DNA of 64,000 nucleotides. Origin: Jaapia argillacea MUCL 33604 (lineage: Eukaryota > Basidiomycota > Agaricomycetes > Jaapiales > Jaapiaceae). The notes beneath the pieces are model-generated. The model was not told the DNA's origin. It worked only from the letters and a program-made list of their open reading frames with translations, and searched no databases. Numbering within the stretch: the first letter of the stretch is position 1; each line of letters begins with the position of its first letter. This document shows positions 15,883-39,027 of the stretch, in pieces. The stretch spans positions 24,382-88,381 of the forward strand of contig KL197768.1 of NCBI GenBank assembly GCA_000697665.1, in the 5' to 3' direction. Position numbers and translations under genes: made by a program.

Positions 15883-17661
15883 TCTCAGACATCGTCTTCT
15901 TTTTCCCACGGGGTACTCCATGTTGCGACGCTGATGGGGGGCTTGGTGCTTGTGCTTTCGGAATTCCGACCTACTTGACCTATCCTATTTGTGATGCCTA
16001 CGAAATATTCTACACTGTTAGTTTTCCACAAAACTCGCCGAGCGTCGAGTAGAACGTCGCCCAAACCGTGGGAGAACTGCGTTGGTTTTCCGTTTTGGGA
16101 ACTGTCAACTTCGGAAATTCGGATCCGACCAGCCCCCTGAGCTCAACATTCACAATGATTCTGTCCTACTTGACTACCTCAAAATCAATACTGTAGAATA
16201 CGTATTTGCAACCCAACTTCCAGTGTGAGCAAAGGATCTGGAGTTATCTGGCTGTCTTTGAAAAAGGAGGACGATGTACCCGATCCAGATCTTGCACCCC
16301 TCTTATCATTTCGATCCCCTTCGACACGCACGTGATCGCCGTACTTCTTGCCAACGCTCGAACTCAAGTCGGGCTGCCATGTACAGAACTATCTCGAGCT
16401 CCCCTCATCAGGTTGCCATTAATATTGGTCTCACCACCAACACTCCTCGCCACGAGTTCTGGTATGTCCTTGACCTCCAACCTGTCTTCACAATCAGCCA
16501 CGTTCGCATCACCAATCCCGTTGACAACAGTAACGACCCCGAAGACCTAATACAGTGATTGATGTCTCTTCCAGACCCACTTGTGTCACTCGCACTGCCG
16601 TGCACCGTCAGCTCCTCACAAGAAACATTGGACCTCCGACATGTATCAGGGTACCTGGTGATTCCGACGATGTCTTCAAGGACGATGAGGACGTGTCGGA
16701 TACTGAGGAAGCACCCCGTAGTATGTATCAGAGCTAGGCAAGAGTTAGTTGGGAGCTTGGCGGGAGAGTACCAGAAGAGGTTCGTCGTCTCTGCATTCCA
16801 ACCGCCGCGTTCTCTCCCTAACATTGCGTCGCAGTACACACCATACCTTAGCAGCCCAAACAACCAAACTCCCCTCCGTCCCAGAAGAATTCGGTGTGCT
16901 CCACCAACTTCTCCAATTCTCGCATCATATACCACCCAAGTTCTCTCGGATGCCCTGGTCCACGCCAAGAAAGTCAGTAGGGGAGGTGGGGAGGAACGAC
17001 TGAGATGGATGATGTCGCGCTTGCCATCACCAACCCCCCACTCTTCCCGACCTCCACTTCGTACCCATGTCCAACCCTCATCATCTCCCATCTCCCAAGC
17101 TCACATCCCTCCGGGTCCGATGATCTGATGCCTTCGCCGGTGCGTCCACACCTGCACCAATCGTCTTGCCAACTTTGCCTGACCGAAGATAATAAGTAGG
17201 CGAGCTGAGAGTTTGGAGGACATACACTTAAACCATCCAACTCTTGTTTCTCAACAGCTTGCACCCGCACCGTTTCTTTGGATCTCTTGGTCTCTCACAT
17301 GATGCTTCCCCTACTATATACCTTCTGTACCCTCCCACATGTTACTCCCAAATTTATTCGTTAATCTTGACATGCTCGTTGTGTAGGCTAGTTCAGTTGA
17401 AGGAATATGACTTACTCTGCACTTTGTTGACTAGGACTTAAGGACTTGGGCTTAATATTGCTTTCTGAACTTGGTCTTCGATAGCGAACTTGGTCTGACT
17501 TGCGAGCAACTTGCACAAGTCGACAACTCATGCAAGACTCACAAGTTGTGCAAGTTATTTGTAGTTTTGCTGATGCTCAACCTTCGACGCCCACCAGCCA
17601 AATCATGTTTGCCATCTGCGATGTCAACTACACCCCCCACCCTCGTCATACACCCTCTTCT
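15883..17661. other. No supported gene; open frames of unclear status
   Basis: A plus-strand frame at ~16380-16556 encodes a peptide with HEFWYVLDLQPVF and a second segment HVRITNPVDN, which reads like real protein. I could not connect it to other exons. A 227-codon minus-strand frame (16408-17091) overlaps it but has low-complexity Arg/Trp/Gly content typical of a chance frame. The right end, 17470-17575, carries the CAAGT-type motif described at 6423. Confidence 0.3.
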
Positions 17662-17903
17662 GCTGGATGGTCTTGTTGTCGTTTCGGTTGCACTTGGATG
17701 TTGCATTGCAGCGTCCTTAGCTAGCAATGAATGGACGGCGAGAACAATGGAAGGGACACAGATGGCTCGGGATCAGTGCGGCGGGAGTGCTCTCTCAATG
17801 CAGTGCAGCAGCGAAGATTCTAGGAATATTGAATTGCAAATGTCAAGACCGAGCTGTGCTGGCGGGAGTCCTCCGTGATGGGCGCTTGATGCCAGCCATA
17901 CTG
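17662..17903 (-). pseudogene. Relic of the 5' end of a kinase-TPR gene
   Basis: The stretch aligns with 28771-29020, which is the promoter and first codons of the kinase gene at 26185-28814. On the minus strand a start at 17706 gives MQHPSATETTT, against MQHPTATETTT in the intact gene. About 190 bp of upstream sequence is also conserved, including CAGCGAAGATTCTAGGAA. After about a dozen codons the similarity stops and no kinase domain follows. It is a truncated duplicate that shows the family, together with its promoter, was once more numerous here. Confidence 0.7.
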
Positions 17904-18988: not shown

Positions 18989-21937
18989 ATGAACCCCAGG
19001 AGGCACCACAGAACCGAATCAAGACCGTTAACGCCAAGTACATTTGTGATCAAGCCAGAGGAGGTGGAGATTGATTACAAGTCAGGTTGTATCGGAGAAG
19101 GGGGATTTAGCACTGTATACCGTGGGCGTTGGGGAGGACACCTTGTGGCCGTTAAAGTTTTGCGGGAACGGATTCCCGCCAAAGTAAGTCCCTCTCATGG
19201 TCCTCCGCCTAGTCGTCTCATCTCCGCGTTCCAGTCTCTACAACAGGAAATCGACATTTGGCAGTCAATTCGCCACCCAAACATCCTTGAATTCTACGGT
19301 TACAACTCGTCATCAGAACCCATTTTCCTCGTGTCTGCGTTAAAGAAGAGGGGTAACGCTGTCGCTTTCTTCATCGATAATCCAGGTGCTAGCAGGCCAA
19401 AGTTGGTGCGTATGCATTTGATTGTGATGAATATGGCTTCATATTCGTTGTTGACATCCTCCATAGCTTTATGAGGCTTCTCTTGGCTTACAGCACCTCC
19501 ACCGACATTCAATTATCCATGGTGACCTGAAAGCGGTGAGTTCCATTGCTTTCTCCCCTGAAGTTCGGTGGTAATTGGTCATCTCAGCTCAATATATTGG
19601 TGGACGACCATGGATCTGCCTGTTTATCTGACTTTGGCCTTTCACATGTTAGAACACTCTCAACCTCGCCTTCCAAACGGAGTGGGCATGGATTTGAAGG
19701 AACCTTGCAATGGATGGCACCAGAATGCTTGGTTGGCTGCAAGGCTAACTCGAAATCGGATATCTACAGCTTTGGCATGACGATATACGAGGTGAGCTCG
19801 ATGCGTCACGCAACTATAAATATGGTTCTAAGTCCTCCTTAGATCTTTACTGGACACGCACCGTTTCCTTATCTCCGTGATGCTGTGGTGATTGCACAGG
19901 TTCAAGAGAGGAGGATGCGCCCCGATCGACCTCCTGATGAGGAGGCTTTACTTCGTGGACTTGGTGATTCAATGTGGACTCTTGTGGTGGAGTGCTGGGG
20001 ACACGAGCCGCAGCAGAGACCCAATTCCACAGACTTAACTCGTCGTCTCGATACGCTAGCCAAGCGCCACGGAGAGAAACAATCGCTCTCGCGATATGCC
20101 GGACGAAAGCCAGAACCCATTGTCTGTGACGAAGACACTGAGGATCCCGACAGGACCCTCCGGGCGACTCAGGATCCCAATGAGAGACAATCTCCGGCTC
20201 GCGCCAATCAAGAGATATCTACGGTCGTCAATTATTCGCTCATCATGCCCGACCCTAAAGTCACCACTCCTCGAAAGATCCCTGGGACTCGCGATACATC
20301 TCCTCCGGCAATTATTCCAATTATTCCTGGCCAAGATGGCTTCAAGGACGTAACGAGCATTCATTACTCTACCTCTACCACACTGAATGGGTGAGCTGCT
20401 GGTCACTGTCCGAATGTAAACTTAGATGATTTACAGTCTCATACACACCCGAGACCCACTAGCATCGAGAAAAATGACCGAACACGAAGGATCCATTCAA
20501 CCCCCAAGCCGGAGAGGCTGGCGCCTCCCATTGAAGGTGAGCTACTTCCAGCAGGCCTTTATCTATGTCTCATCCCCTCCCAAAGCAGAAGCTCGGTCTC
20601 TTTCAACCCGTGCTGGTCAACTCTTTCACCACTTCGAAAGCACTGGTGAACTCGGGGATTTGGAAGAGGCCATCAAGTTGGACCACGAAGCTGTTTCCCT
20701 TTGCCTAAAACCCAACGCCGAACGAGCCCAGTCGCTCTCGAAGCTTGCTCTCGATCTTGGTCATCGATTCCAACGCGCCGGCCATTTTGAGGACTTACAA
20801 GAGGCAATCAGGTTGTACGGTGAAGCCCTTTTGCTCGTGCCAGAAATCAATAGCTATCGAGCTGCCTGGCTCCCAAACCTGACTGTTTGCCTTCGCCTTC
20901 GATTTCATCAAGAAGGTCAACTTCGGGACTTGGAAGAGGTAGTCGAGTTGGACCGTCAAATTCTGTCGCTTACTCGGGAACCCAATACCCACCGCGCTGA
21001 ATTGCTTACCCGCCTCGCTGATGATCTTAGCCTTCGGTTCGTTCACACTAGCCAACTCGACGATTTGGAAGAAGCAATTAAATTGGATCGCGAAGCACTC
21101 TCGCTTCGATGCGAACCCAGTGCCCATCGAGCGCTCTCACTCACTCGCCTCGCTGATGACCTCAGATGTCGATTCAAGCGCACCACTGGCAGTCGGTCCA
21201 ATGATTTGGACGAAGCTTTCAAATTGGACCACGAAGCACTTGAACTTTCCACTACCGACTCTGATCGAGCAGATTCCCTCTCAAACCTTGCTCGCGACCA
21301 CAACATTCGGTTTGAAGGCGCCGGTCACCCCGAGGATTTAGATGAGGGAATCAGGTTGAGTCGCGAAGCACTCTCGCTTCTACCCCATCCTGACGATCAT
21401 CGAGCTTCTGCACTCACAAACTTAGCCAAACATCTCGGGTGTCGATTCCGGCACAATAAACATCGTGAGGATTTAGAGGAGGCTATCAAATGTCAACGTG
21501 AGGCGCTCTCCCTTCGACCAAAGCCTAATCCCCATCGGCGTCGGTCACTTGCAAGCCTCGTGTATTACCTCGTTCAGCGATTCCACCACAATCACCATGT
21601 GCAAGACTTGGACGAAGCAGTATCCTTGAACTGCGAAGCACTCTCGCTCCTACCCAAACCCAATGCTGATCGAGCTCAGTCACTCGCACAACTTGCGAAT
21701 TGGCTCCGTCTCCGATCCCAGCATACCCCCCATTCCCAGGATTTGGACGAGTCTATCGTGTTTTGTCATCAAGCACTTCATCTTTATCCGGGTTCTCGAA
21801 CGCGTTATCCTCTCGTTGTCCTCAGAGAGAGTCTCGCCGCCCGATATGATCTTCTGGGAAGACCTGAGGATTTGGAGGAGTTACGGAATTTGCGGACGGA
21901 GATCCAAGACTTGGGAAACCTGGAGGCGGGAAAGTGA
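18989..21937 (+). CDS. Protein kinase - linker - TPR protein, gene 1
   Basis: Exons 18989..19183, 19235..19405, 19467..19535, 19588..19791, 19843..20390, 20463..20536 and 20589..21937 give 869 aa. The sixth exon boundary is the least certain; I chose it because it restores the frame and matches the paralogues. The kinase spans ~30-285: glycine loop GEGGFSTV, Lys56 in VAVK, Glu70, HGDLK (Asp142), DFG 160-162 and APE 189-191. All catalytic residues are present, so it should be active, most like TKL kinases. The linker holds one TSIHYS motif. Residues ~421-860 are about nine TPR-like units of the D-LEEAIKLDREALSLRP type, a protein-binding superhelix. No signal peptide or membrane segment is present. 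The fusion suggests that a signal sensed by the TPRs switches the kinase. Confidence 0.78.
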
Positions 21938-23269
21938 TAAATCATTCTTCCGTGTGGTATGTTGTTTGTCGTACAGTTGGATGACATTCAAGGACCCATT
22001 GCTTGGGAGTTCGAGACTTCAGAACCTTTCATGAAAATGTCAAATCGATGTGTTTCTCCACCATGTTTTGGCAGTAATTCTCGTTCCCTATGGATCGATA
22101 TCTGTATTTTCAATCATCTTGTGCGTCTTCCCAGCCGGCATCGTCGATAATTAATTGCCATATACATATCATATTATAAGCTGTATCTTAGCTCTACAGT
22201 ATTCCATTATCCTTCAGGGCGTAGCCTTATGGGTAGACATCACGGTTCATGTATTATACCAATCCAATAATGGGGCCGCTCCCCTTATTTCCTCTTGCTC
22301 ACGCATTGCAAATCTCCAGCTGCCGACTTGCTGCGCAACCCGACAGCCCGACGTTTAGTTCTACATAGCGTAAACATACGACTCATTTGCTGGTTCAACG
22401 TCGCGCTGTGCGTTCTCTCTCCAACACCCTTCAACGATCGATACCTCCCAATCCATACACAACCCAAGGATGGTCCATCACCAAGGCGAAGGAGTAGACG
22501 GCTGCAATTTCATGATCCAGAGGGAATCAAATATGACGCATAACAGAAAGCGATGGGAAATGGCTTTGAGGTGCAGATGTAATAGTTAGAAGCATGGGGT
22601 GGCATGAATCAACCGGAAATAACTTGCCTAAAACCGCAGATCGAGACGATGAAATGATGATGATCCTGCCAGTCACCAGAGGAGGGGATGGATTGAACAC
22701 TAGGTATCGAAGAAAGCTGGAAATTCCATGAAGGTTTCTCATCAGTAAGGGCCCTCTCCTAATCACAACACAGCACAAGGGATGAACTCACGATAAACTA
22801 TCGCCCATCGACAACGAATCCAACGGGCCATAACAACAGCCCATGGAACGAAATATCACCCTCCCTCGACGAAGATAACTCAGGCTCAATCTCGACGAAG
22901 TTCGGCGTCCTAATCAACCCAAAAGTGGGTAAATCCAACCACCCATCTCGATCGTATTCGAAACCACTTGGTCCCAATGGGCGGCTTCTGATTCCAGGTA
23001 GTTCCAGCCGTCAGGGCTCCTATTTGTCCTCTCAATACCCATCGCCTATTGCCGCTACTTAGTTTTGTCTCATATCTCCCCTCCGCATATCCAGACCTCG
23101 ACCGTTCCCACCAACATACTCCCTACCCCGCACTCCACCTCTCTCATCCTAATATCCAACCTCCCCCCCATTCTATAACGAGAGGCGATGAATCATAAGA
23201 TTACGGATTGAAAGCCGAAGGAGTGAACCAAATGTTCGTTTCCGGGAAGTGAGTTGGGGGTTCTCAGAC
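21938..23269. other. Intergenic, no supported gene
   Basis: The 3' flank of kinase gene 1, then 1 kb with only short unsupported frames. A minus-strand frame at 22527-22778 has no recognisable feature. Confidence 0.3.
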
Positions 23270-23600
23270 ATTGCGAGTAGAATCGATTTGACAAGTCGGG
23301 GTTTACGAGGTGGTGGGATATGCATGGTGCTTAATGATCGCTGTTATTGAGAGTAGGGGTGAAGAAGACGGGTAGGTTTGAGTCTCGTGGTCGACGGGAT
23401 AACGGGATAGGGAAGGTCAAGTTGGGTCCTGAAGGTGACAACAACGAGTGGGAGAACTGCGTTGCACTGGAAATATAAGCAAGGGAAAGGCGTAATTGGA
23501 TGGGGAAACTCACATTAAGCTATTAATTTCCAGAGACGGAGCTCCAACAGCCAATCATTCCATCCACATCAACCTCAAGGAGACTCAAGCTAGCTTAGCT
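23270..23600. repeat. Duplicated segment, copy A (partner at 32825-33200)
   Basis: The stretch aligns with 32825-33200. Anchors are GAATCGATTTGACAAGTCGG against GAATCAATTTGAAAAATCGG, and later GGAAACTCACATTAAGC against GGAAACTCACATCAAGC. It marks the left part of two larger related units, each of which leads on to a kinase-TPR gene. Confidence 0.55.
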
Positions 23601-24224
23601 CTCTCGCTCCTCGTATGCAACGCCTGAATCCATGTCGGGTCCAGCCTTCGAGTCTGGCACTCGCCACTGAGGCATCCATTACCCTCCTTGTCAGCCCACC
23701 GTCGTCGCTCTCCTCTCCACAGACCTTCCTCTCTCACCTCTTCACACAACACCCTCAGATTCCGATCGACATGACACCCTACCACCCAGTCTTGTCACCC
23801 TCATCGTCCATACCCTCTGATGTACTTCATTCCGTCCTTTCAACAATGAGCCACCAAAGAGAGGGGTCTTCAACGAGTGCTGAAACGCAAATCCATGTGC
23901 GGACACACATGACTGGAGGGAGGTTGGTTGACATACTCTATAACAGGTCAGGATTGTCGAGTGGTAGGTTGGGTTGGTGAAAAGCAATGGCGATGAGGTG
24001 AGGCTGAGATCCCTAGGACTGGTCCAGAACCGAATATAAGTGAGAAATTGTGGACCTTTGGACGAGGATCGTGCTGCATAAGTAGAGGAATGGTTCGGGG
24101 TGCATGACTGGAAGGTGCAATGCGCGAGATTGACCAAGGTTGATTCGGGAAGGCCTACGAGTTCGAGTAGTATGAGGGACATAGGGCGACATATGCAATG
24201 TGTATGCGGAAAGACTCACCACGT

Positions 24225-24545
24225 TCACCAATCCGTAAAAACATGGGCAGCAACCTGCCATACTTCCAACCTCTGAAACCCACCACCCTGGGCTCCAGGT
24301 TTAGCTTCACGTCCGTAAACCGCTGGAATGATCAATCTGATGGTATCACCCACTTTTGCGGCTTCGATCAAGGGATGGGTAGGGGGCCATGTGGCGACGT
24401 GTCGAGTACGAGGGTGGGGAGGGACAGTGAAGGAGAGGGGGACGCGTAGTGTTTGGAGTCGGTGACGAAGACAGCAGTGGTCGGTGGTTTGGGCAGGTGT
24501 GCCGAGTTTCTGGAAGGATGGGGATGGGTTAGAGATGGGAGAGCG
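24225..24545 (-). pseudogene. Truncated copy of the gene at 30859-31677
   Basis: The last ~80 codons are nearly identical to the C-terminus of the intact gene (VGDTIRLIIPAVYGREAKPG, then GGGFQRLEVWQVAAHVFTDW and TGA). Just upstream, about eight bases are missing relative to the intact copy after the T-D-S-K segment, which shifts the frame. The N-terminal two-thirds are missing. It is a clear pseudogene. Confidence 0.7.
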
Positions 24546-24556
24546 GATGGGTTAAC

Positions 24557-24800
24557 TCGAAGCAGTGTCAATCGAGAGTGTTAGGGACTCACAAGTTTCG
24601 GAAAAATGGAGCGACGTGAACTCGATACTCCCAACACCCACATCGTCCCCATGCACAATTCTTTCCAATCCACACCATCCACACCATCCTCATTCTCCAA
24701 CCACTCGACTCCTCCACACAGTCCTCGATACCCTTCGCATCATTTCGATCCCCTCACCACCCACATATGCATACCAATCCTACCCCATCCACCGCAAACG
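24557..24800. repeat. Duplicated segment, copy 2 (partner at 14841-15066)
   Basis: See the copy at 14841. This one continues further to the right because it is not interrupted by the foldback element. A short extra CACACCATC repeat is present. Confidence 0.55.
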
Positions 24801-24909
24801 AATGTCAACGAAAGCTGCAGTCGAGTTCCAGGTCGGTACGGGAACGATGTCTCAGCTTCAGTGGACGGAAGTTAAGTAGTTTTGGTGTATCACTGATACA
24901 GTGTATTTT

Positions 24910-26184
24910 AGTTGTGGCATGTCGGCGGAGAGATAAGGTTAGAATTCATTCTCCGCCATCACTGTGCTCATCGTTTGTCGGCACCCCGCTCATCGACGAC
25001 CACAGCGACGAGTATGCTCCCAACAACAGCCCACCAATCTTCCTGCCTTTTTCCCTCTGAGGATCAAGCATCTCACAGCTCAATTCTGTTCCCCTGCCTG
25101 CCCTCTACTTGTTTCACCTCACCGAGTCTGTTAAGCTGGAACCCTTGGGGACGTCGCGATTTTGACCTATGCCAAGCGGCTAAGAGCCCTGGAGAAGCAT
25201 GTCAACGGATCACATCCAACTAGAGCCTCACATCTCTCTCGAACTTACGCGTTCACGTTCGAGGGACCTGAGCCAACCAGATGAGCGTATACACATATTT
25301 TCGAACTTGTCGTCGTCCAATATTAGCCCAGTGCTCTCCATCTATTCCTCAGATTTGGTCGCGCCCCAATCCTTAGCAAGATCTTCGACCATGCTCTGGC
25401 GATATTCGCGAGACTATTTGAACCCCGGTTCGGACCAGCTACGACGGGTCGTGAGTCTGATACTTTATCGTCTTGAGCATGTCACCGTCGCAGTGCCTAC
25501 AATCATAGCCGAAACCTATCCACATCCTCTCAGACACCTCCCACTTTACATACTACCTCGCAAGCCTCAGCTCTAATTCTGACAATATCAAGTCGAGATC
25601 CCCGCCTCTTACACCGCATGCGACTCCTTGCATTATCGATCGGTGGGCATCTCGCCTTCCTTCAACATTCGCAGAATAGAACAGGCCTCTTGAAGCTTTC
25701 CCACCCGACCTTACGGTCTGCTATAAGCCATTGATCAACTCAGTTCTCAACAACCTGTTCGGGAGTTGCGTGTCTTCGCCGTCTGCTAAGGCGTCTCGAC
25801 AAGCCCTCGTCATTACTCACAGTCAAAATCTGCCTTCAGCACCACCATACTACTTCTTTCGATTTTACCTGGAACTTGTTCGATTCCTTTCGCCACGCTA
25901 CCTTTCGGATACTCATCATCGAGAGCGATCGCGTCGGCGCTTCCATGGGTCTATCTTATCGGCTCTCCCACTGCACGACTATACCCTCTGAAGATTGGGT
26001 TGGCTGTTGTACTGAGGTAGGTGATGTGGTCCGCGTTCGATGGACTAGCTACAGTAGTGTTGGAAGATGACGGTACTTCTTTGAATATGGATTTGTCCCA
26101 GGTTTCGAAAATTAAGTCCGGCCCCTCATTCGTTCATCTCATTTTCAGACATATTCTACAGCTGGTACATTGCGTATACAGTAT
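24910..26184. repeat. 3' flank of kinase gene 2, duplicated at 34738-36012
   Basis: About 1.3 kb is recognisably the same as the region 3' of kinase gene 3. Anchors are the GATAAGGTTAGAATTCATTC block, CTGACAATATCAAGTCGAGA and the run into the gene ends. No intact gene lies inside. The duplicated unit therefore includes the kinase gene plus more than 1 kb of 3' flank. Confidence 0.6.
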
Positions 26185-28814
26185 TTACCTGAAGGGAGAG
26201 GAGAATACACGTGAAAAAAAGTTCCTGCCAACTCGACCTGGTCCAGCCGAAGATGAAGATGAAAGGACCCTACCAAATCTCACCTCCATCTGGTTTATCT
26301 CCTTCAAGTCCTCACGTCTACCCAGAGAATCGTACCGTAACTTGAGTTGTTTGACGAGTCCATCAACTCGTTCGTCAGTCACAGACCCTGGATAGAGGTT
26401 CAGGGCTTCACGGAAAAGTACGATTGACTCGTCCAAATCATACATCCGTCGGGTGTGGAAATATCTGTCACGGAGGTTGGTGGCGAGGGAAGTAAGTGAA
26501 CGAGCTCGAATCACATTGGGACTGTATCGTAGTCCCAGCGCTTCACGTCCCAATGTTACGGCCTCCTCCAAATCTCCAGGGTACCCAGAATGCTTGAATC
26601 GAATGGCAAGACTTTCGGCTAGGGTTTCCAGTGCATTACCACGGTCTCCATCACGCCCATATCGGAGTTTGAGTGCTTCACGTCCCAAGGCTACCGCCTC
26701 CTCCAAATCTCCAAAGTCTCCAATATGCTTGAATCGAGTGGTGAGGTCAAGGGCAAGGTTTTTCAGTGCAAAAGCGCGATCGACATTGGGCTCAGGTCGG
26801 AGTAGCAGTGCTTGACGTCCCAAGCGTACTGCTTCCTCCAAATCTCCAATGTCTCGGGAATACTGAAACCGACGAGCAAGGCTGTTGGCAAGGTAATGGA
26901 GTATCCGGCCCCTATCGCTGTTAGGTTCTGGTTGAAGAGCGCAAGCATCACGATACAACTTGACCGACTCTTCCAAATGCTCGAGTTGACCTGTACGTTT
27001 AAATTCACGAGAGTACTCTTTGGCACGGGAGAACAGCGTCTCCACTGTGGTCAGTAAGAGTTAGCCGAGATCTGACCATATACGGATCAGAGTAACTCAC
27101 ATTCAGCCGCGAACCTTGCTGTTGCTAGACCAGTTGGAGGTAAAATGTTAGGTTGTGCGTCGCGGAGTGTTCGGTCAGAGTAATAGTGAAGCCTGGTGCG
27201 TTCCCTGGAGACGTTATTTTGAATATCGACGTATGGCTCTCGTTCATTCGTACGAATAATGGGTCGATGGTCGCGTTGTGGGGGGGTTATCGTAGCTTCG
27301 GAAAGTTGGGGTATGCGGTCGGAGTAGTGAAGACTGGTGATGGTCCTGGAGACGCCGGTTGGCATATCAGGATACGACTGTACACCGAAGGTAGGAATGG
27401 TGGGCTGACGCGGAGTCGCTATGATGCGTTCGGGTGATTGGGGTGTGCTACCAGAGGCGTGAAGAGCACCGAAGATGTCGCGTTGGACATCAGAGTATGA
27501 TGGCAGACTAACAGGGGAAACGGGGCGAGAAATCTGGCGCGAGGTCGCCGTTTGAGAGTCGAGGAGCGGGGGTGCGTGATTGGGGTAGTGTACGTTGTTG
27601 AAAGTTCTGAAGGCACCGTTCTGGAGACCGTCAATCGGACGTAACTCGACAGCATCCAGTGATGAGGCTATGGTCGAAACATCATCTCCCCGTCTCGTTG
27701 TAGTACCCGGCAGGGGTGAAGCAGGTCCCATATCCGTATGAGATTTGCGTATTGAATCAAAGCGATGAACAAGATCACTCGCACGAGGTCTCGAATCTGG
27801 TTCGTGGGTCCAACATTCCACAGCAAGAGACCACATACGATCATCCAAACCACGCTGTACAATCTCTTCATCAGTCGGTCGAGGGGGGCGGTGTTTTCGC
27901 TCGGTAACCTCGACGTATATCACAGGGTCGGTGAGTCCAGAAAACGGCGAGCGACCAGAAAATATCTAAGCAGGATTAAGATCGAAGGAGTGAAAGATAG
28001 TACTAGGAACTCACTTCGTAAATCGTCATACCGAAGCTATACATGTCGGACCTTGTGTTCCCCAACGTTGCACCAATCATACATTCTGGAGCCATCCAGG
28101 GAAACGTCCCTCCTGGTCCGTTCCGCGTAGTCCTGGCGCTATTAGACTTCGAGATCTCCCTAACTCGGGATAACCCAAAGTCAGACAAACATGCAGTTCC
28201 GTGTTCATCGACCAGTATATTGCACTGATTCGAAATGTTAGCTTCGAAACAGTACACCCACTGAAAGCAAACTCACCCCTTTGAGATCGCCGTGGATGAT
28301 TTTATTCCGATGTAAGTATCGCAATCCCAGGGAGGCCTCATGGAGCTGCGAAGAGTGTCTGCGATGAACACGGTTTTACCGGGAGGATGATTGGATACCC
28401 ACCAATTTCGGTCGACTGGCCTCGGGTTTGAGCGTAAAGAAAGTAAGAGCATCGCCTTGCTGCTTAAGGGCGGAAATGATGAATAGTGGGTCAGAAGAGG
28501 TGTTGCAGCCGTAAAACTCCAGGATGTTGGGGTGTCGAAGTGACTGCCACACCTCGACTTCCTTCTGCAAGATCTGGAGCCAGGGATGAGAGGTCAAGGA
28601 AGAATAGAATCAAATGAAATGGACGGACCTTTGGGGGAATACCTCTCAGTAATACTTTGATCGCCACAGGGTGACCTTCCCAATTTCCACGATATACATC
28701 TCCGAATCCTCCTTGGCCAAGGAGGACGTTCCGCTCAATCTCCACCTCGTTAGGATTGATTACAAAAGTGTTGGATGGACTTGTTGTCGTTTCGGTTGCA
28801 GTTGGATGTTGCAT
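26185..28814 (-). CDS. Protein kinase - linker - TPR protein, gene 2
   Basis: Exons 28629..28814, 28403..28573, 28277..28345, 28015..28224, 27101..27965 and 26185..27044 give 786 aa. All kinase introns fall at the same codons as in genes 1 and 3. The kinase domain has glycine loop GQGGFGDV, Lys53, HGDLK and DFG, with the activation segment ending in APE, so it should be active. The linker (~280-500) contains four spaced motifs of the LHYS type (VHYP, LHAS, LHYS, LHYY), each followed by a Pro/Gln/Ile-rich stretch. The C-terminal ~285 residues are five to six TPR-like units, fewer than in gene 1, and end with a Ser-rich basic tail (RNFFSRVFSS). The promoter region is shared with the relic at 17662. 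Confidence 0.82.
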
Positions 28815-29019
28815 CGCAGCTTACTTGGTTGGTTATGATGGACGAGAACGGGGAAGGGAGACAGATGGCTCAGGATCAGTGCGGGCGGATAGCGGTGGAG
28901 AGTGCCCTCTCAATGCGGTGCCGCAGCGAAGATTCTAGGAACATGGATTTGCAAATGTCAAGCCCGAGGTCCCGAGCTGTGCTGGCGGCAGTGCTCCGTG
29001 ATAGGCGCTTGACGCCAGC

Positions 29020-30858
29020 CATACTCAACTCAATAACTGGTGAGAGTTCAGGGACCACATAAGCGCCAGCTTGTTCTTCCGGTTTGACCTTGTCCTTTTA
29101 TGCTATGTTCTGGGGCGACAAGCGAGCCTACGAGCGCTTTGTTTCGTTTTCTTCAACTTTCAAGCCTCGTGAATACCGGACAAGAGTTTTGAAAGATGGA
29201 AAACGGCAATTTCAAGATTGTCGACGTGAACTTCAAAGCCTGAGATAATTGAATTACCGGGGTGGACGATGGGATGGCGAACTCAGTGGAGTCAAAACAC
29301 ATGTCGTACTTATTTATATCTCCTTTCCTCATGAATAAAGAAACACCTACACTTTGATTCGTCTGGGCCCCTAACAGACGAGGCGAGGAGCATTGTATGC
29401 TTGAAATAAGCGTTCGTTCTTTCGCCGCTCTCCCGTAACTCATTCCAAGCCCCGAAATCCCTCATCACCCATATCCCAATACCCTCCAACCCCGACTCAA
29501 TCCCAAAACTTTTCCAATCCTCAAACGTCACCATCCTCCAAACATGTAACACACAACATCCTCCAACCACCCAATCACCAATATCAGCCTCAGGTATGGT
29601 GTGAGGGTTTCAAGTTGAATCGTCAGGGTCAGGGGGGTCACGTATCGTTTGGGGATTCGAGACTTGGCACATCAATTGTGGGTTCGAGGGTTCAAGACCG
29701 GGTCGTTGGGGGTTCGAGATTAGTGGATAGCGTAAGGGCTTGAGGGTGGAGGATCTCGAGAGTTTCGAATCGAGCGAGCATCCAAGCGTCTCACGTGTCC
29801 GAGAGTCGAATTATCGCGTGTTGAGACTGGAGAGTCCAGTGTTGTTCCTGGGGCGGGAAATCGGAGGACGACGAGTGCCTCTAAGGAGTAGTCGAATGGG
29901 AGGATGGAAAGGGTTGAGTGAGAATTAGATGCGACGAAGTTTGGCCACATACTTCCAGTACGTGCGAGGCAGAAAACGTTTGGCAGTGATGCTGTTACGA
30001 GGTCAGCGATCAATTGGAGGGCCGGAGGAGAGAAACGAGGCTTACCGTCAACCAGTCGTTACGAATATGTCAACCTCCACCATCGTTGTAACCTCGACTC
30101 CACACATGGCCCGGATCTCTCAACAACCCTCGACCTGTCTCTCCACATCCAAACAGACATGTAACCCCACGCGATCACTCATCCGAAGACGCTTCGAGGG
30201 TCGTACGGAGTGTGGTGATATGCGAGAGTCGAGTGGTCCTCCGTGCCGGTCTTCATTGTCAGAGAGTTGGATTGAAAGACGAGGTAGGTAGTATCGAGTG
30301 GCTCTGCGGAGGAGGCGGGGTGAGATTCGTGTGGTGGGGGTAAGGCATCGACTGGATATAAAGGGGCGGAAAGCGAGAGAGTGGCTGGTCACTTGCCTTC
30401 TAGGATCCTATCCAACCGCCGAACCCAGCCATTCCCCAACCCTGTACCTGTACCTGTCTCTCACATCCAACCGGACGATACAAGCCCACGCGATCACTCA
30501 TCGGATGGTGCGAGTCTTGGTGAAGTTGTATTGAGTGTGGTGATGAAGCAGGGCCAAGTGGTCGTCCGGGCAGCGCATATATGCCGTCTTTAATACCGCA
30601 GAGTAGGTTGGGAAGACGAGAGAAGGAAGGGCGGGCGTGCTTTCGTAGGAGGAGGGTGAGATTGGTGATGTGGAGATAAGGCGTAGGTGAAGAGGAAGGG
30701 AAGGAAAGGGATAGAATAGCTGCTCACCATTACGCCGCAAAATCAATCAAGTTTCAGAAACACTGAATGTGATCTCCGGTCAGGGCATGAACGAAGTCTG
30801 AGTAATGATGGTCAATGAACAAACCCATCGAAGGCGAGATTATAAACATACCTAACAT
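29020..30858. other. Gene-poor, degenerate duplicated sequence
   Basis: The part at 29240-29420 resembles 39405-39560, and 29930-30020 resembles 34620-34720 and 40545-40650. This again shows old duplications of one ancestral block. A further tandem duplication links ~30130-30255 and ~30440-30590. Minus-strand frames here and in the copies share short peptides, but all are broken. No intact gene is supported. Confidence 0.4.
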
Positions 30859-31677
30859 TCACCAATCCGTAAAAACGTGCGCTGCAACCTGCCAGACTTC
30901 CAACCTCTGAAACCCACCCCCCTGCGATCCAGGTTTAGCTTCGCGTCCGTAAACCGCTGGGATGATCAGCCTGATGGTATCGCCAACTTGTGCTGCCTCG
31001 AGCAATGGATGGTTACGAGACCAGGTTACAATGTGTTGGGTGCGAGGATGATTAGGGACGGTGAGGGACAGAGGGACGCGTAGGATTTCAGGGTCCTTGG
31101 TGTCGGCGATGAGGATGGAGATCCTCGGTGGTATGGATTGGTGTGCCGGGTTTGGGATAGGGAGCGAGGGATGGTTGGCGGATGTGTTCCTCCTAACCGA
31201 GCTAGTCGGACGATACAACGATACCTCCAACACATCCACGACTCTCCCCACCGCAACCCTCCCGAGCGCAGGCTGCTTGCCCAACTCGGGCATCCTAACC
31301 ATCCAAACGACCTTCCTCGTCGGTCTCTCACAAGTCCACTCCAAATAAACTTTCCTCCTCTTCTCTCGCTCATTCAACGACTGACCGCGACCAGACAACA
31401 CCGTTTCGAGTCGTCTGTGAACGGAAGATCGATGGAACAGTTCGGCGTAGTTGAGGATGGGCACGACCAGTTCTGGTGGGAGGATGAAAGAGAGAAGGAA
31501 TTTGATTTCGAGAGCTGGGTTCGGCAGTAACCTGTGTGACATTGAGGGAGGGTTGGTGGTGGGGAGAGCTGGGTTGCTGGTTGTTTGGTTGGTTGGGCGG
31601 GTAGGACCAAAAGATGCGAGAGGCGTGGCACGAGATGCTGATTGCTTGGGCTTTGACTTGACGTCCCTGCTCAACAT
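30859..31677 (-). CDS. Basidiomycete-specific hypothetical protein with LPPELV motif
   Basis: Single-exon frame of 272 aa from the ATG at 31677. Residues ~66-82 read LPPELVVPILNYAELF, a motif found at the N-terminus of a large mushroom family whose C-terminal part has a conserved W-x-R, G-D-x-I segment. Here the latter is VGDTIRLIIPAVYGREAKPG and the gene ends in VAAHVFTDW. The LPPEL motif resembles a degenerate F-box-like helix, but the function is unknown. No signal peptide or membrane segment is present. A C-terminal pseudogene copy lies at 24225-24545. The gene appears intact. Confidence 0.65.
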   Translation of the reverse strand: MLSRDVKSKPKQSASRATPLASFGPTRPTNQTTSNPALPTTNPPSMSHRLLPNPALEIKFLLSFILPPELVVPILNYAELFHRSSVHRRLETVLSGRGQSLNEREKRRKVYLEWTCERPTRKVVWMVRMPELGKQPALGRVAVGRVVDVLEVSLYRPTSSVRRNTSANHPSLPIPNPAHQSIPPRISILIADTKDPEILRVPLSLTVPNHPRTQHIVTWSRNHPLLEAAQVGDTIRLIIPAVYGREAKPGSQGGGFQRLEVWQVAAHVFTDW

Positions 31678-31832
31678 ACGGACTTGTAATTATTGTTCTT
31701 GTCATTCACTTTGTCCACCAATATTAATGTCTATCTGCTGTCGCCTGCTGTACTTCTGAGAATTTCTGACTTTCCCCGACCCTTACCGCTCGACATGGAT
31801 CCAACGATTGTCAATCACACAGTACCAGCATT

Positions 31833-32293
31833 CTACTGAACGCCAGGGATGTAATATTCCACACTCTCTGCTCCGCGTGGACGCTCCATTCCTTTGATAA
31901 CGTGGACAAGGGCGTGTAGACCAACAACACGAGCAGCATCGAAGCCCAATCCACTCCAAGTTTCTGCACCAACCAACCTCTTCCCGCCCAACCCCATCAA
32001 CCCCACCAACCGCCACCCCCAAAACTCTGATATGCCGTCAGGTCCCACCACTGTACAATGAAACCAAAGGGCAGCGAATGGGAGATACACATCTTACATC
32101 ACGTAGGCATAAGGAGAGTGAAGGGCCGATCGCGTATCGGTCCACTCACCGATCTAAATATCGTGAGTCGCGGTTCTGTCATCAACTCAGTTCTAAGCCA
32201 TAGCAAGGTCCGACCTGTGAAATGGGTTGTCAGGGAAATCTGAACTCCATCAATCCCGAGTCCGAGGAACGATTTTGAGAGGGTTTCGCTCAA
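31833..32293 (-). pseudogene. Possible gene remnant of unknown family
   Basis: Two minus-strand segments read like protein. The upstream one (about 32160-32290) contains SFLGLGIDGVQ, and the downstream one (31833-32053) contains GFDAARVVGLHALVHVIKG and ends YYIPGVQ. A GTGAGT donor and a CAG acceptor separate them, but the phases do not match, so a base seems lost or another exon is missing. The family is not recognised. Confidence 0.35.
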
Positions 32294-32824
32294 TAGACGG
32301 AGCGCGGAGGGTTGGGGTTGGTCGACGATGGGGCTTGGGGCTTGGGATGCTGAAAGTGAAGGGCATACCAGACAAAAACGTCGCTCACCGAACTTTCAGA
32401 TTCGTCTGTGGATCTCCAATCCCCTCTATAGCATCGAATGCTCGCATATACCCAGATATAACACATTCATATTCGAGCGTGTCCTTGATGGAAGTTACAG
32501 GTGATTGCGGAACGTCCTAGCGCCAAAGGAGGGTTTATATTGTTCGAAGGAGACCCCTACGTGAGAACATCGTGACATATTCTCCGAATAGCAAGTCGTA
32601 TGTCCGCCGGAACTTGAAAGATGAGAAGATGAATTCTCGCCGCCGTTGAGAGGGAAGAGCCAGTTCGGAGGGATGAGTCAAACGGAAAATCTTGTGTAGG
32701 AGCTCAGATTGTGATGACAGCACGACGATAGCAAATGTTACTAGAGGACGGAAAGGGCCCTGAAAACTAGGTCGTGAAGGAAGACAGAGGTTTCACGCCC
32801 GCTCCCGAGGAGACGAGCCAACGT

Positions 32825-33200
32825 CATAGTAGAATCAATTTGAAAAATCGGGGTTCATAGGGTGGTGGGATTTGCACAGCACTTAACGATCACTGTTGGC
32901 GAGAGTAGGGCAATTGGGCAGTCGAGGAAGACGGTAAGAGTTAAGTCTCGCGGTCGACGGAAAGAGAGGGTCGAGTCGGGCGATGGTGATGACAACGACG
33001 AGTAGAAGAACTGAATCGCAATGTGAATATAAGCAGAGGAAAGACATCATTGGATGAGGAAACTCACATCAAGCCATTGATTTCTAGAGACGGAGGGGCC
33101 GCTCCGACTCGTCAGCTCAGGTGTACAATCCCCTTCTTATCACCCCAATATCGTCGCTCTCCTCTCCACAGACTACCCTTCCCCCCCTCTTCACATAACA
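32825..33200. repeat. Duplicated segment, copy B (partner at 23270-23600)
   Basis: Right-hand partner of the segment described at 23270. It lies about 3 kb upstream of the end of kinase gene 3, as its partner does relative to gene 2. Confidence 0.55.
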
Positions 33201-34737
33201 CCCTCAGGCCCTCTTCGATGTAACGCCCTACGACTCTCTCGAAACACCCTCACCATCGACACAAATCTCAATTTCAGACTCGATAATTCCACCAAGACTT
33301 CCCTACCGCTACTCGGTCTCGCGTAACTTATCCCGTCCTTTCAATACCCAACCGGGACAGGGAGGGCTTGACGGAAGTGCGGAAACGGGAGTGGATGTGG
33401 TGAGACGGATTCCTGGAGGGTGGTCAAATGGCTGATGGGTTGACATGGGCTTCTGGAAGGCCGTTGAGACGTGCTGAATGGTCAATTATGTCGAAAGTAG
33501 GGGAAGGGGGGCGCAGTATAGTCGTGGGTAACAGGTAAGAATTATCGAGTAGGTAGCGTCGGCATGCCAAGGTCGGGTTGGAAGCGACAGTTGCGGATGG
33601 GGGAGGAGAGCGGTTGGAATTTAGGTTGCTCGAAGTTGTGCTAGTTGGCCGATACAACTGATCACTCTTCTTGGGTTGTACAGGGTATACTGATACAGGA
33701 AGATTGGGCGTTCATCTGAGATGCTGGGTCGTAACGAGCTCAATCGCTAAGGGATGTACACCGTCGGGTTTGATCGAGAGTTGAGATCTGGAAAGGAAGG
33801 ATCGTAAGTAACTCCGTTTCTGCGAGAGGATATGAGGAGTACTAACCAAAAGGCAAGAGGGACAAGGGAAGAGGAGGATGACGCGACGCTCTGTCGACAC
33901 ACAGACCTCAAAGCTACGGACCCAACACTATGTTTCCTCCTAGCAAAACCACCCCCCATCTCCAAAGCTATTCCGACCTTCATCCCAAGCTCCACAAAGG
34001 TGGATCCCTTCCAACTCCCAACTCCCTTCACACAACCCTATCCCCAACCTATTCCAAACCCGAAACACCTCATCCTCCCACTACACAAATCCCAATACCT
34101 CCAGCCCCAGCCCCAGCCTCGACCAACCCTCTCGATTCCCCAACCACCCAAATTCCAATCCCAATCCTCAAATCCCACTATCCCTAATCACCCAAAGTCC
34201 CAAGCTTATCGCACTTTCATCTTCCAATCACCCGATCACCAAGCTCCCTGAAATCACCCAACAGACCACATCACGTATCATTCGGGGTGAATGAGTCGTC
34301 ACTCGTATATCCCTAGGATCGTTCGAGGGTCCCAGAATGAAGTGCCGGGGGGTTAGGAGAGTCAGGTATCGCTCGGGGAGTCGAGGTTGGACCGCTGGGA
34401 GTTTGAGAAGGTGTGTTGTGGGAAGATTCGGATTCGAGTATCCCGAGGGCGGGGGCGGCGTGTCTTGCGAGCGTTTAAGCATCTATCACCCGAGAGTTGA
34501 ATTGCCACATAGTCGGGGATGAGTGTGGAATCACTCCTGGGTGGGGGAAACCTCAACGAGGACGAGTGCTTCTAGTGAATAGGTTAGTGGGCGGATGGAA
34601 AGGGATTGATAAGGCGAAGACTCTCACCACACTTCCAGCAGGTTAGAGGCAGTCTGCGGAACATATTTTACAACGATGCACGACGATGCTGTGACAAGAT
34701 CAGCAATCAATGTGGGTTAGGACGTTGACCAAGGCCC
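33201..34737. other. Pyrimidine-rich, gene-poor stretch
   Basis: The plus strand from ~33930 to 34240 is rich in CCCAATCC-type runs, so the open frames there are low-complexity. Around 34615-34720 it resembles 29930-30020. No gene is supported. Confidence 0.3.
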
Positions 34738-36012
34738 GAGGCACGTCGGCGGACAGATAAGGTTGGAATTCATTCTCCGATCCCATCGTTTGTCGGCACC
34801 CGCTCATCGTCGATGACAGTGGCGAGCACGCTCACACCAGCAACCTACCAATCTTCCAGCTCTGACGTTCGAGTATTACACAACTCACCTCTGTTTCTCA
34901 GCCTCCCTCTACTTGTTCCACCTTAGCGACTCTATCTAACTAGAACCGTTGCACTAGCAGACACCGGGATTTTGACTTACGACGAGCGGCCAAGCGCCCT
35001 GGAGTGCAGAGGAATTGCATCTTATCAGACCCCTCATATCTCTCGAGGTTTCACGTCGGAGGAACTTGCGCCAAATCTGATGGGCGTGTATACATACTCA
35101 CCGATTTGTCGTCACTCAATATTAGCCCCACCGCTACTCTGCATTATTCCTCTCATTAGGCCACGCCCTCCGTATTTCGATGGGAACCATGATCTTCGAC
35201 CTTGCTCTGAGGGCATTGCTAGAGTCGTTAAACCCTGGTTTGGACCAGCTACGACGCGTCGTGAGTCCGATACTTTATCTTCCCAAGCATATACCCGTCG
35301 CACTCCCTACAATTATAACCGAACCCTATTCAGATCCTCAGACATCGCCCACTCCCACTTTATATGCTGCCTCGCCAGACTCAGCTTTAATTCTGACAAT
35401 ATCAAGTCGAGATCCCCGCCTCCTACAACACACTCGACTCCTCCTATTCATCTTCTATTACTGATCGGCGTGTATCTCGTCTTTCTTGAACATTCGCAGG
35501 AACAGGCCCCACTGAGGGTGTCCCAAACCAAACTTACGAGCTGTTACATCTCATTGATCCATTCAGGTGTCTTCAACCTGCTCGGGAGGTGCGCGTCTTC
35601 GCCGTCGGCTACTCGACTCAAGCTCTCCGCGCAAGTACTCACAGTCACACTCTGCCTTCAGCACCACCATGCAACTTATCCAAATTGCATCCAGAACCTG
35701 TGCGATTTCCTTTCGCCGTGACTACCTTTCAGATATTCATCATCAAGACTGACGTCGTGTCGTCGCTTCGACGGATCTATCTCACCGATTCTCTTACAGA
35801 ACGAATATCCGCTCGGAAGATTGGGCTGGCCGCATTGCGGAGGTGGGGTCCGGGTCCGTGTTGTTCGCTGGACTAGCGACGGGATCATTGGGGCGATGAA
35901 GGGAATTCTTTTAGGATTTGTGCGAGGTTGGGATAACCAAGTCGTGCTGTGCTCACGTGTTCATCGCGTTTTCAGACACATTCTGAGGCTGGTACATTCA
36001 CATGGACAGTAT
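34738..36012. repeat. 3' flank of kinase gene 3, duplicated at 24910-26184
   Basis: Partner of the block at 24910. Plus-strand open frames here are not conserved with their counterparts at the protein level. Confidence 0.6.
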
Positions 36013-39000
36013 TTACTTAAAGCGCGAGGAGAATACACGTGAAAAAAAATTCTTTGTAGCTCGAACCGGTCTGCCCGGAGGCGAAGGGACCCTACCCAAT
36101 CTCACTTCCATCTCATTCATCTCCTTCAAATCCTCAGGCCGGCCGAGGGAATTGTACCGTGACTTGAGGTGTTTGATGAGTCTATCGACTCGTTCATCGG
36201 TTGCGGATCCTGGATAGAGATTCAGAGCTTCACGGAGAAGTACGATTGACTCATCCAAATCATACATCTGGCCATTGTGGCGAAATCTATCTTGGAGATG
36301 GGTGGCGAAGCGAGTGAGTGATTGAGCGCGATCTTCATTCATGTCTGGTCGAAGCACTAGGGCTTCGCGATTGAAATGGATAGCTTCCTCCAAATCTCTA
36401 AGATGACCTCCATTTTTGAATCGTCCGACAAGGTCGAGGGCAAGGTTTTCCAGTGAACGAGCACGATCTGCATTGGGCTGAGGTCGGAGTTCCAGTACTT
36501 CACGACCCAACTTTACTGCTTCCTCCAAATCTCCAAGGTCTCCGGAATGCTTGAATCGACTGGCAAGGACAAAGGCAAGGTTGTACAGTGAGCCAGCACG
36601 ATCTCCATTTGGCTCAGGTCGGAGTACCAGTGCTTCACGGCCCAACTTTACTGCCTCCTCCAAATCTCCAAGGTCTCCGGAATGCTTGAATCGACTGGAA
36701 AGGACAAAGGCAAGGTGGTGCAGTGAACCAGCACGATTTGCATTGGGTTCAGGTCGGAGTTCCAGTGCCTCACGGTCCAACTTTACTGCTTCCTCCAAAT
36801 CTCCAAGGTCTCCAGAATGCTTGAATCGATGGCCAAGGTAAAAGGCAAGGGATTGGAGTATCCAGGCCCTATCACTATTAGGTTCTGGTTGAAGAGTAAG
36901 AGCATCTCGACACAACTTGACTGCCTTTTCCAACTCCTCAAGTTGACCAGTACATTCAAATTGATGAAAGTGCTGTCTTACACCAAAGTACAGCAACTCA
37001 ACTGGGTCAGTAAGTGTCAGCCGAGATCTGACCGAATATGGACCAAAGTAACTTACATTCAACCTTGGACTTTTCTCTTGCAAGACTAGTTGGAGGTAAA
37101 ACTTTAGGTTCCTCCTGTAGTTCTGGGTTGAGGAGCATATTGTTGCTGCCACTGTGAAAGAATATGAATTAGCCAGATTTGAGGGGTAGTTTGGTGCACA
37201 CCCATCTGATGTGCTAATGTAATCAGTCAATATGACTTGCCTCAAACTCCCTTGACTGTCATCCAAGCTAGCCATGGAAGGATCTCTGTCCTGGAGGGTA
37301 GCACTAATGGGCTGACCAGGTTGATGCAAGGTAATCGCGAGATGTTCAGAATGTTGGGGTGTTTGGTCAGAGTAGTAGTGAAGACTGGTGACTTTCTTGG
37401 AGACATCACTTTGGATATCATTGTATGGCTCTTGCTCAACAGTATGGCTAATGGGCTGATGGATGGGTTGTGAGGGGGTTGTCATATCTTTGGAGAATTG
37501 GGGTATGTTATTGGAGTAGTGAAGACTGGTGGGGGTTCTGGAGATGTTGGTTGGGATCTCCTGTAAACTGATAGGAGGAATAGTGGGTTGATGGAGAGCA
37601 GCTATGATGTGCTCAGGGGATTGTGGTATGCTGTCGGAAGAGTGAAGACTGGTGAGAGTACTGGGATTGTTGCTTTGTAGATCAACAGATGACTGTAGAC
37701 CAATGGGGGAGATGGGTTGAGTGATCTGGCGTGAGGCCACCATTCGAGAGTCACTGAGCCAGGGCATGTGATTGGAGTAGTGTAGACTGGTAACAGTTCT
37801 GAAGGCACCGTTTTGGAGACCATCAGTCGACCGTGGCTCGACAGCATCCAGTGCTGACACTATGGTCAAAACATCATCCTGTGTGCCTTCAGATGAAACA
37901 ACAACTCTCCGTCTCCTTGCAGCACGCCGCAGGAGTAAAGTGTGCTCCATTTCCGTGTAGTATTTGTGTAGTGAATCAAGGCAGTGGGCAAGGTCACTCG
38001 CGCAAGGTCTTGAACTCGGTTCATGGCTCCAACATTCCATCACGAGAGACCACATGGCATCATCCAAACCACACAGTTCAATCTCTTCATCGGTCGGTCG
38101 TGGCGGACGGTGTTTTCGCTCCGTAACTTCGACGAATATCACCGGATGGGTTAGTCCAGAAAATGGTGAGCGCCCGGAGAATATCTAAACAGAATTAAGA
38201 TTGACAAAGCAAAGTTAATATTAAAAGCTTACTTCGTAAATGGTCATACCAAAGCTATACACGTCGGACATTTTGTTCCCCAACGTAGCACCAACCATAC
38301 ATTCTGGAGCCATCCACGGAAATGTCCCTCCTGGTTTGTCCCGCATACTCCTGACACTATTCGACTGCGAGAGCTCCCTAACTCGAGATAGCCCAAAATC
38401 AGACAAGCATGCGGTTCCTCGTTCGTCCACTAGTATATTACACTGATTCGAAATGTTGGCTTCCAAATATTACACCGATAGATAAGGAAACTCACCCCTT
38501 TGAGATCGCCGTGGATGACTGAATGCCGATGTAAGTGTTGCAATCCCAGGGAAGCCTCATAGAGCTGCAAATAGCGTCCATGATGAACACTAATTCGCAG
38601 GGAGAACAATCTGGATACTAACCAATTTCGGTCGACTAGCCTCGGGGTTGAGGTCAAAGAACTCGCGAGCATCGCCTTTCTGCTTATGGGCTGACACGAG
38701 AAATAGTGGGTCTGACGAGGAGTTGTAGCCGTAAAACTCCAGGATGTTGGGGTGTCGGAGGGACTGCCAGACGGCAACTTCCTGCTGCAAGAGCTGGAGC
38801 CGGGGATGAGAACCAAGAAGAACGAAACTAAGCAAACTGACTTTTGGAGGAATGCCTCTCAGCAAGACTTTGATCGCCACAGTGTGACCTCCCCAGCTCC
38901 CACGGTACACATCTCCAAATCCTCCTTGGCCAAGGAGGGTATTGCGATCGATCTCTACTTCGTCGGCATTGATTACAAAGGTGTTTGATGGCGTTGTCAT

Positions 39001-39027
39001 CGTTCCGGTCCGACTTGGACGTTGCAT
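36013..39027 (-). CDS. Protein kinase - linker - TPR protein, gene 3
   Basis: Exons 38842..39027, 38623..38793, 38496..38564, 38233..38442, 37202..38184, 37057..37151 and 36013..37001 give exactly 900 aa. The intron at 37152-37201 has no counterpart in gene 2 but is at about the same place as one in gene 1. The kinase has GQGGFGDV, Lys53, HGDLK (Asp139) and DFG 157-159, with APE in the activation segment; it is complete. The linker (~280-590) holds at least four TSLHYS-like motifs spaced ~40-55 aa apart. The TPR part (~573-860) has about six units; three of them are nearly identical, encoded by 135-bp repeats at 36521-36925. The C-terminal tail is NFFSRVFSSRFK, as in gene 2. It is the closest paralogue of gene 2. 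Confidence 0.85.
36521..36925 (-). repeat. Three 135-bp nearly identical TPR-coding units
   Basis: Units start at 36521, 36656 and 36791, each beginning TCCTCCAAATCTCCAAGGTC on the plus strand, and encode 45-aa TPR-like units (GDLGDLEEAVKLGREAL type). They are far more alike to each other than to the outer units, which indicates recent duplication or gene conversion. Confidence 0.8.

Follow-up and report, generated by a model that had tools for sequence, protein, structure and literature searches.

Kinase-linker-TPR fusion genes of the basidiomycete Jaapia argillacea, a candidate family of intracellular receptor kinases

Three clustered genes of the basidiomycete Jaapia argillacea MUCL 33604, here called A, B, and C, each join a tyrosine kinase-like (TKL) type kinase to a linker and a block of tetratricopeptide repeats (TPRs) within a single predicted protein. 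They lie in a window of 64,000 nucleotides (GenBank assembly GCA_000697665.1, contig KL197768.1, positions 24,382 to 88,381) from a genome assembly of 43.7 Mb in 95 contigs. C-numbers denote contigs of the same genome, the window being C60:24382-88381; positions without a contig number are those of the window, and all comparisons were made among paralogs of this one genome. We tentatively interpret A, B, and C as members of a small family with fast gene turnover, made up of intracellular Ser/Thr kinases of TKL type that carry a TPR sensor, or "NOD-less receptor kinases" (NOD, nucleotide-binding oligomerization domain), with a rough probability of 0.42. A receptor role appears plausible and is the best single account of these genes because constraint on the kinase, change in the TPR groove, differences in repeat number, and gene turnover co-occur.

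Gene A (18989..21937, forward strand; exons 18989-19183, 19235-19405, 19467-19535, 19588-19791, 19843-20390, and 20437-21937) encodes a TKL-type kinase, a linker, and nine TPRs plus a cap. Gene B (26185..28814, reverse strand; exons 28629-28814, 28403-28573, 28277-28345, 28015-28224, 27101-27965, and 26185-27044) has five TPRs plus a cap after its kinase and linker, and gene C (36013..39027, reverse strand; exons 38842-39027, 38623-38793, 38496-38564, 38233-38442, and 36013-38184) has six plus a cap. After GT-AG splicing, the predicted proteins of 895, 786, and 935 amino acids (aa), respectively, are free of internal stops, and Pfam kinase and TPR families are matched in each. Together with eight DUF6534 matches in the genome, seven of them over the cut-off, the short GT-AG introns of the cluster gene models fit an Agaricomycete. 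Four of these introns, of 48 to 61 nucleotides (nt) and in phase 0, interrupt the kinase at identical positions in all three genes. Beyond these, A has a 46-nt intron inside the linker, B has a 56-nt GT-AG intron at the linker-TPR junction, and C has none. The 55-nt counterpart of the B linker-TPR intron stays open in frame in C, and C was modelled as reading through it because removing this stretch alone shifts the frame. We consider the kinase-linker-TPR anatomy of the three genes firm; the common architecture, the identical kinase intron positions, and the range of about 5 to 9 TPRs that an earlier sequence-only reading of this DNA had proposed are all borne out by the spliced models. It could be argued that the kinase and TPR parts were wrongly joined in the models and are separate genes, or that the copies are pseudogenes, as the splice sites were predicted from the sequence and the linker-TPR intron of C is ambiguous. 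This is very improbable, and we rejected it: the last exon of C is one open frame of 723 codons running from the kinase C-lobe through the linker to the last TPR, B needs one 56-nt GT-AG intron, a linker ratio of nonsynonymous to synonymous divergence (dN/dS) of 0.63 between B and C suggests coding constraint, and the same kinase-TPR order is found at seven loci.

The P-loop, the VAVK/VAIK lysine, HGDLK, DFG, and APE are all kept in A, B, and C, as read from the translations, and the Pfam family PK_Tyr_Ser-Thr is matched with E values of 4.8e-45 (A), 3.9e-45 (B), and 1.8e-43 (C), in agreement with the earlier claim of a complete TKL-like kinase. Because an EGFR entry, a Src/Abl ancestor, Src, CTR1, Fes, and B-Raf are among the closest relatives of known structure by sequence, we assign the kinases, complete by motif, to the tyrosine kinase (TK)/TKL group. 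DLKxxN is a catalytic loop of Ser/Thr type, and DLAARN or DLRAAN are of TK type; the loop reads HGDLKGCN in B and C and HGDLKALN in A, which is Ser/Thr-like and points to TKL rather than TK. Intact catalytic motifs, together with a B-C dN/dS of 0.25 in the kinase (0.63 in the linker and 0.54 in the TPRs), indicate that the kinase is constrained.

Genome-wide searches demonstrate that the kinase-TPR family reaches beyond the window. A search with the B kinase yielded 80 matches at an E value of 1e-8 or better, from which the closest were kept, twelve places including A, B, and C. The other nine are D (C60:101557), E60_135 and E60_137 (both on C60), C21, C22, C24a, C24b, C24c, and C36. By splice-aware alignment, all four phase-0 kinase introns are present in five of the nine (D, C21, C22, C24a, and C36); C24b has four, the last called in a different phase, E60_137 also has four but loses the frame at the fourth, and the broken copies E60_135 and C24c have only two of the kinase introns each. 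A same-strand TPR block is found at seven of the twelve places (A, B, C, D, C21, C22, and C24a). Four of these seven loci look unbroken (A, B, C, and C21, the linker of C21 being modelled in part) and three decayed: D lacks the last part of its kinase C-lobe and its TPR frame is broken, the long TPR array of C22 contains several stops, and the kinase of C24a contains one. Within this genome, the fusion is not strictly conserved and single copy, the case that the sequence-only reading had named as speaking against recognition.

In a FastTree phylogeny of ten kinase rows, B and C group together (0.984) and D joins next (0.899). B and C lie in a tandem segmental duplication (24.9-28.8 kb versus 34.7-39.0 kb, in pieces of 74 to 81% identity), and their synonymous divergence (dS) is even across kinase (0.48), linker (0.48), and TPRs (0.45), as if the whole gene had been copied at once. 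The sequence-only reading had also counted one relic of the same architecture. A relic is present (17602..17902, reverse strand; DNA and protein match to B), but it lies outside the span given for the cluster and holds only a B-like 5' flank, a start codon, and about 16 codons: positions 17661-17902 are 81% identical to 28769-29025 at the 5' end of B, and positions 17602-17706 give a weak protein match to B residues 1-46 (E 0.025). It is the one relic found at the search sensitivity used, below which weaker relics could fall.

Additional kinase matches occur at C60:105975-139476, outside the window and to near the contig end, and in total the kinase matches extend over about 95 kb of a contig 139 kb long; those at C60:105975-117977 are more divergent than the twelve close places. 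Kinase matches near TPRs are also found on C13 and C9, where the C9 TPR adjoins a CHAT match. The sister kinases C24b and C24c (L038 and L015, C24:214726-220801) are followed by a different open frame, an apparent swap of the C terminus, and the 219-aa frame after the C24b kinase had no Pfam match at E 0.01.

The TPR blocks of A (20588..21934, forward strand, by unit counting), B (26188..27042, reverse strand, with the C-terminal tail), and C (36016..37005, reverse strand, with the C-terminal tail) have a unit spacing of 45 aa, with additional spacings of 47 and 44 in A, and end in a partial cap, which in C was read from the translation. Pfam TPR_10/TPR_12 was matched, and TPR families were found in each gene. 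An AlphaFold run on the last C exon, with the A and B exons as alignment, had an overall mean predicted local distance difference test (pLDDT) score of 58.1 and a predicted template modelling (pTM) score of 0.48. It gave seven helix pairs, block means of pLDDT across the TPRs mostly exceeded 90, and the TPR block of C is thus predicted to be a superhelix of stacked helix-turn-helix units. Foldseek with this model returned first the consensus TPR 8chy (E 4e-09), then O-GlcNAc transferase (OGT), SPINDLY, LGN, and kinesin light chain (KLC); phmmer with the C TPR block found no PDB relative at E 0.001.

The B TPR query identified at least 134 matches genome-wide at an E value of 1e-8 or better, forming 50 clusters; the TPR, CHAT, and NACHT matches listed are lower bounds. 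Among the matches listed, 38 of the 50 TPR clusters have one of 50 CHAT matches within 4 kb, seven are the kinase loci, and no cluster has one of the 50 listed NACHT matches that close (this genome-wide search covered NACHT, not NB-ARC). The sequence-only reading had described this TPR type as usually coupled to NOD-like receptors (NLRs) or CHAT proteins; the CHAT part stands, the NLR part does not as far as NACHT goes, and in this genome the TPR type is CHAT-linked to that extent. Five of the 50 clusters have no CHAT, NACHT, or family kinase within 4 kb among the matches listed. No NACHT or NB-ARC match was found in A, B, or C (Pfam, E 0.1), and we rejected membership of the three genes among the NLRs, given this lack of a NOD match and the TPR clusters having none of the listed NACHT matches nearby.

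Change between B and C appears concentrated in the TPR groove, which we take, from canonical TPR numbering and not from the C model, to be positions 2, 5, 9, 12, and 13. Five positionally matched units provided 25 groove codon pairs, with a proportion of nonsynonymous differences (pN) of 0.471 versus a synonymous proportion (pS) of 0.324 over all positions. A bootstrap treating codons as independent gave a median groove dN/dS of 1.76 (1.03-2.98; P(<=1) = 0.019), and the value on the dS of all positions is 1.75. Random five-position sets reached the groove pN in 15 of 20,000 draws, and dN/dS at other TPR positions is 0.18 (buried), 0.58 (exposed helix-B), and 0.55 (loops). Within genes, groove dN/dS among units 2-4 is 2.17 on groove dS and 2.67 on the dS of all positions in C, and 3.52 and 3.83, respectively, in B. 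As an estimate from paralog divergence, the B-C groove signal stands on its own statistics.

Nearly as likely as a receptor family is an ordinary lineage-specific expansion of TKL kinases, in which the TPRs would be a scaffold docking cellular partners in development or nutrient signalling while duplicates diverge and get lost. Laccaria bicolor has such an expansion, with no known function, according to the accessible text of PMC2838846, and the J. argillacea genome has at least 163 PF07714 matches (TKL-like kinases, counted exon by exon). The whole-TPR and whole-linker dN/dS between B and C (0.54 and 0.63) are compatible with relaxed constraint, and the decay of three of the seven kinase-TPR loci also fits, as does one CHAT-type TPR array with comparable groove variability on one measure. 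However, relaxation alone predicts a groove dN/dS of up to about 1, and the B-C groove has a lower bound of 1.03 next to 0.18 at buried positions.

Several observations weigh against a receptor role. The between-gene signal comes from 25 codon pairs of one gene pair with assumed positional homology, and its lower bound is just above 1. The youngest unit pair, C3-C4, with 2 and 1 changes, has a groove dN/dS of 0.51 on groove dS and 1.58 on the dS of all positions. CHAT-type TPR arrays were tried as a control: of four, two lacked sufficiently close unit pairs and L050 and L051 were usable. L051 gave a groove dN/dS of 0.15 on groove dS and 0.30 on the dS of all positions, and L050 gave 0.96 on groove dS but 3.37 on the dS of all positions. 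These mixed controls imply that a variable groove is not peculiar to the kinase genes; because L050 reaches 3.37, we no longer treat these arrays as cleanly negative and slightly lowered the probability of the receptor reading, from 0.45 to 0.42. None of the 50 listed NACHT matches is on C60. Units 2-3, 2-4, and 3-4 of C share 76%, 76%, and 84% aa identity (81 to 92% nt identity among units 2-4), below the line for high internal conservation given in the accessible part of PMC4986451, which asks for 85% identity across 100 aa or more of repeats. For the concave TPR surface, whose dN/dS the sequence-only reading had singled out, the outcome is divided: the B-C groove is elevated, between paralogs and not alleles, and the CHAT-TPR controls are mixed. 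Its broader description, an effector on a changing repeat scaffold at a duplicated locus, agrees with the differing repeat numbers, the B/C tandem, the decayed loci, and the groove change.

The linker of C (37009..37971, reverse strand) is internally repeated and predicted to be disordered, with pLDDT below 50 throughout (model residues 72-392). As had been proposed, linkers differ between genes: identity of A to B or C is 25 to 31%, and alignment between subfamilies is poor. Across otherwise dissimilar linkers, a short motif of the pattern [RKN]-x-hydrophobic-T-x-[ILV]-x-Y recurs. It reads RTVTSLHY in C (37777..37800, reverse strand, with further pattern copies at 37516-37539 and 37375-37398), RTITSLHY in B (27324..27347, reverse strand), and KDVTSIHY in A (20344..20367, forward strand, close to the 3' boundary of exon 5). 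A nine-residue window (best SRQITTIHY) across six linker groups scored 133, versus 88.3 +/- 4.7 (maximum 105) and 0 of 300 in composition-preserving shuffles; the test used eight linkers from the twelve copies, with linker ends chosen by hand. By fixed pattern, A, B, C21, and C24a have one copy each, C22 has two, C has three, and C24b and C36 have none; by eye, three copies can be seen in B and four in C, some degenerate. The variants GRVTRLTF and GRVTRLDF occur in C24b and C36, and the variant motif is kept in the sister kinases C24b, C24c, and C36 (L034). By reading, the motif is also near an exon end in A and C24a. In C21, a unit of motif exon and donor-like site occurs twice, 208 bp apart, one of the two being included in the score test; an initial count of four motif exons there was dropped.

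A basic residue (Arg or Lys) three positions ahead of the Thr is suggestive of a basophilic phosphosite, the reading we favour, and the alternating hydrophobic residues also allow a beta motif. RIPK1 carries its RIP homotypic interaction motif (RHIM) between the kinase and the C-terminal domain, and by analogy the linker motif could be a short beta-forming, amyloid-type homotypic motif that polymerises the kinases. The alternation of hydrophobics, recurrence within linkers, the presence of a variant in those sister kinases that lack a TPR block, and the predicted disorder of the C linker are in line with this scheme, and the accessible text of PMC9815663 reports amyloid-like motifs in Agaricomycete NLRs. 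We nevertheless consider it improbable. The motif has about 8 to 10 residues versus 12 to 30 for the amyloid motifs listed in the same text, and the basic residue suits a phosphosite equally. One strict DNA form of the motif had 17 matches genome-wide, six in the family, with 23 for a reversed control; no convincing amyloid partner emerged, four of the 11 outside matches (C71, C2:1767669, C8:544263, and C28, the last reading by eye like a phosphatase) looking like chance and seven being uninspected. With those seven still uninspected, we take the motif to be family-bound.

Under the receptor reading, the TPR groove would bind a variable protein or peptide partner, and binding would cluster or release the kinase, which could then autophosphorylate on the RxxT-like motifs of the linker (R-x-[VIL]-T-x-[IL]-x-Y) and relay the signal. 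What is sensed, whether another individual, a microbe, or a virus, is suggested by the evolutionary pattern alone. A more far-reaching version, which we think unlikely, is that these genes represent an undescribed class of fungal intracellular receptor: a TKL kinase would replace NOD and effector, the TPRs would be a diversifying sensor, and a duplicable linker-motif exon would act as the activation switch (phospho-switch or homotypic beta motif), with a variant shared with sister kinases that have another C terminus.

A neighbor gene without Pfam match (30859..31689, reverse strand), situated 3' of C in the interval that separates B and C, was duplicated along with them: a partial copy, identified by sequence match, lies on the 3' side of B (24225..24551, reverse strand), and a decayed copy lies beside D (C60:100590-101135). 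The sole other match in a genome search is partial, on C59. Upstream of the cluster, positions 15068-15882 form a palindrome of about 814 bp with two arms of about 400 bp and a 91% match to its own reverse complement, resembling a miniature inverted-repeat transposable element (MITE) or hairpin. Dispersed repeats of 76 to 87% identity lie in and around the cluster (13458-13717 with 39779-40036; 14879-15023 with 24572-24728). Elsewhere in the window, positions 62270-63182 are a dense tandem array with self-matches offset by multiples of 43 bp and copies about 78 to 85% alike, and two forward-strand frames (4757-6088 and 8159-9361) look alike by eye, the first with a MYND finger (E 8e-09) and the second without Pfam match.

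In RIPK1, IRAK, and Pelle, a TKL kinase is combined with a linker and a domain for protein interaction, and IRAK1 and Pelle have an HGD-type catalytic loop. A, B, and C share this layout of TKL kinase, linker, and interaction domain; we claim no homology beyond the kinase, and no death domain was matched by Pfam and no RHIM was recognised in the three genes. Fungal TPR-CHAT proteins have the same TPR type and likewise fuse a repeat sensor to an enzyme without a NOD, and one of the two arrays tested also has a high groove dN on one measure; A, B, and C instead carry a kinase, at the N terminus, whereas CHAT sits after the TPRs in L050 and L057. The accessible text of several papers offers further comparisons. 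Repeat-number polymorphism and groove-side positive selection in TPRs are described for Podospora NLR repeats (Dyrka et al. 2014, PMC4986451), where Pkinase is listed among NLR N-terminal domains. Fungal NLRs with TPR sensors (PNT1, PLP-1, and Podospora NB-ARC-TPR; PMC4986451, PMC12881547) resemble A, B, and C in having an N-terminal effector, C-terminal TPRs, repeat-number variation, and groove-side change, but A, B, and C have no NACHT/NB-ARC match, a TKL-type kinase as effector, and repeats below the 85% line. Proteases fused directly to repeats are described in PMC10197012 and PMC12881547, the latter also with repeats fused to predicted kinase-like domains, and amyloid motifs in PMC5485727 as well as PMC9815663. 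The Laccaria bicolor TKL excess, without assigned role (Kosti et al. 2010, PMC2838846), likewise comprises many copies with a TKL-like kinase domain; A, B, and C differ in their TPR C terminus, shared linker motif, and shared intron set, and the accessible portion of that paper mentions no TKL-TPR fusion. Another fungal TK-like lineage is described in PMC3937382. In the open-access literature searched, as far as its text was accessible, no description of basidiomycete kinase-TPR fusions was found.

If the receptor reading is correct, the combination of a constrained kinase with a diversifying sensor would give a TKL subfamily a role, and fungi would build NOD-less recognition receptors not only from CHAT proteases but also from kinases. 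To our knowledge, few non-self recognition genes are known in basidiomycetes, and the genes described here would provide concrete loci for such recognition.

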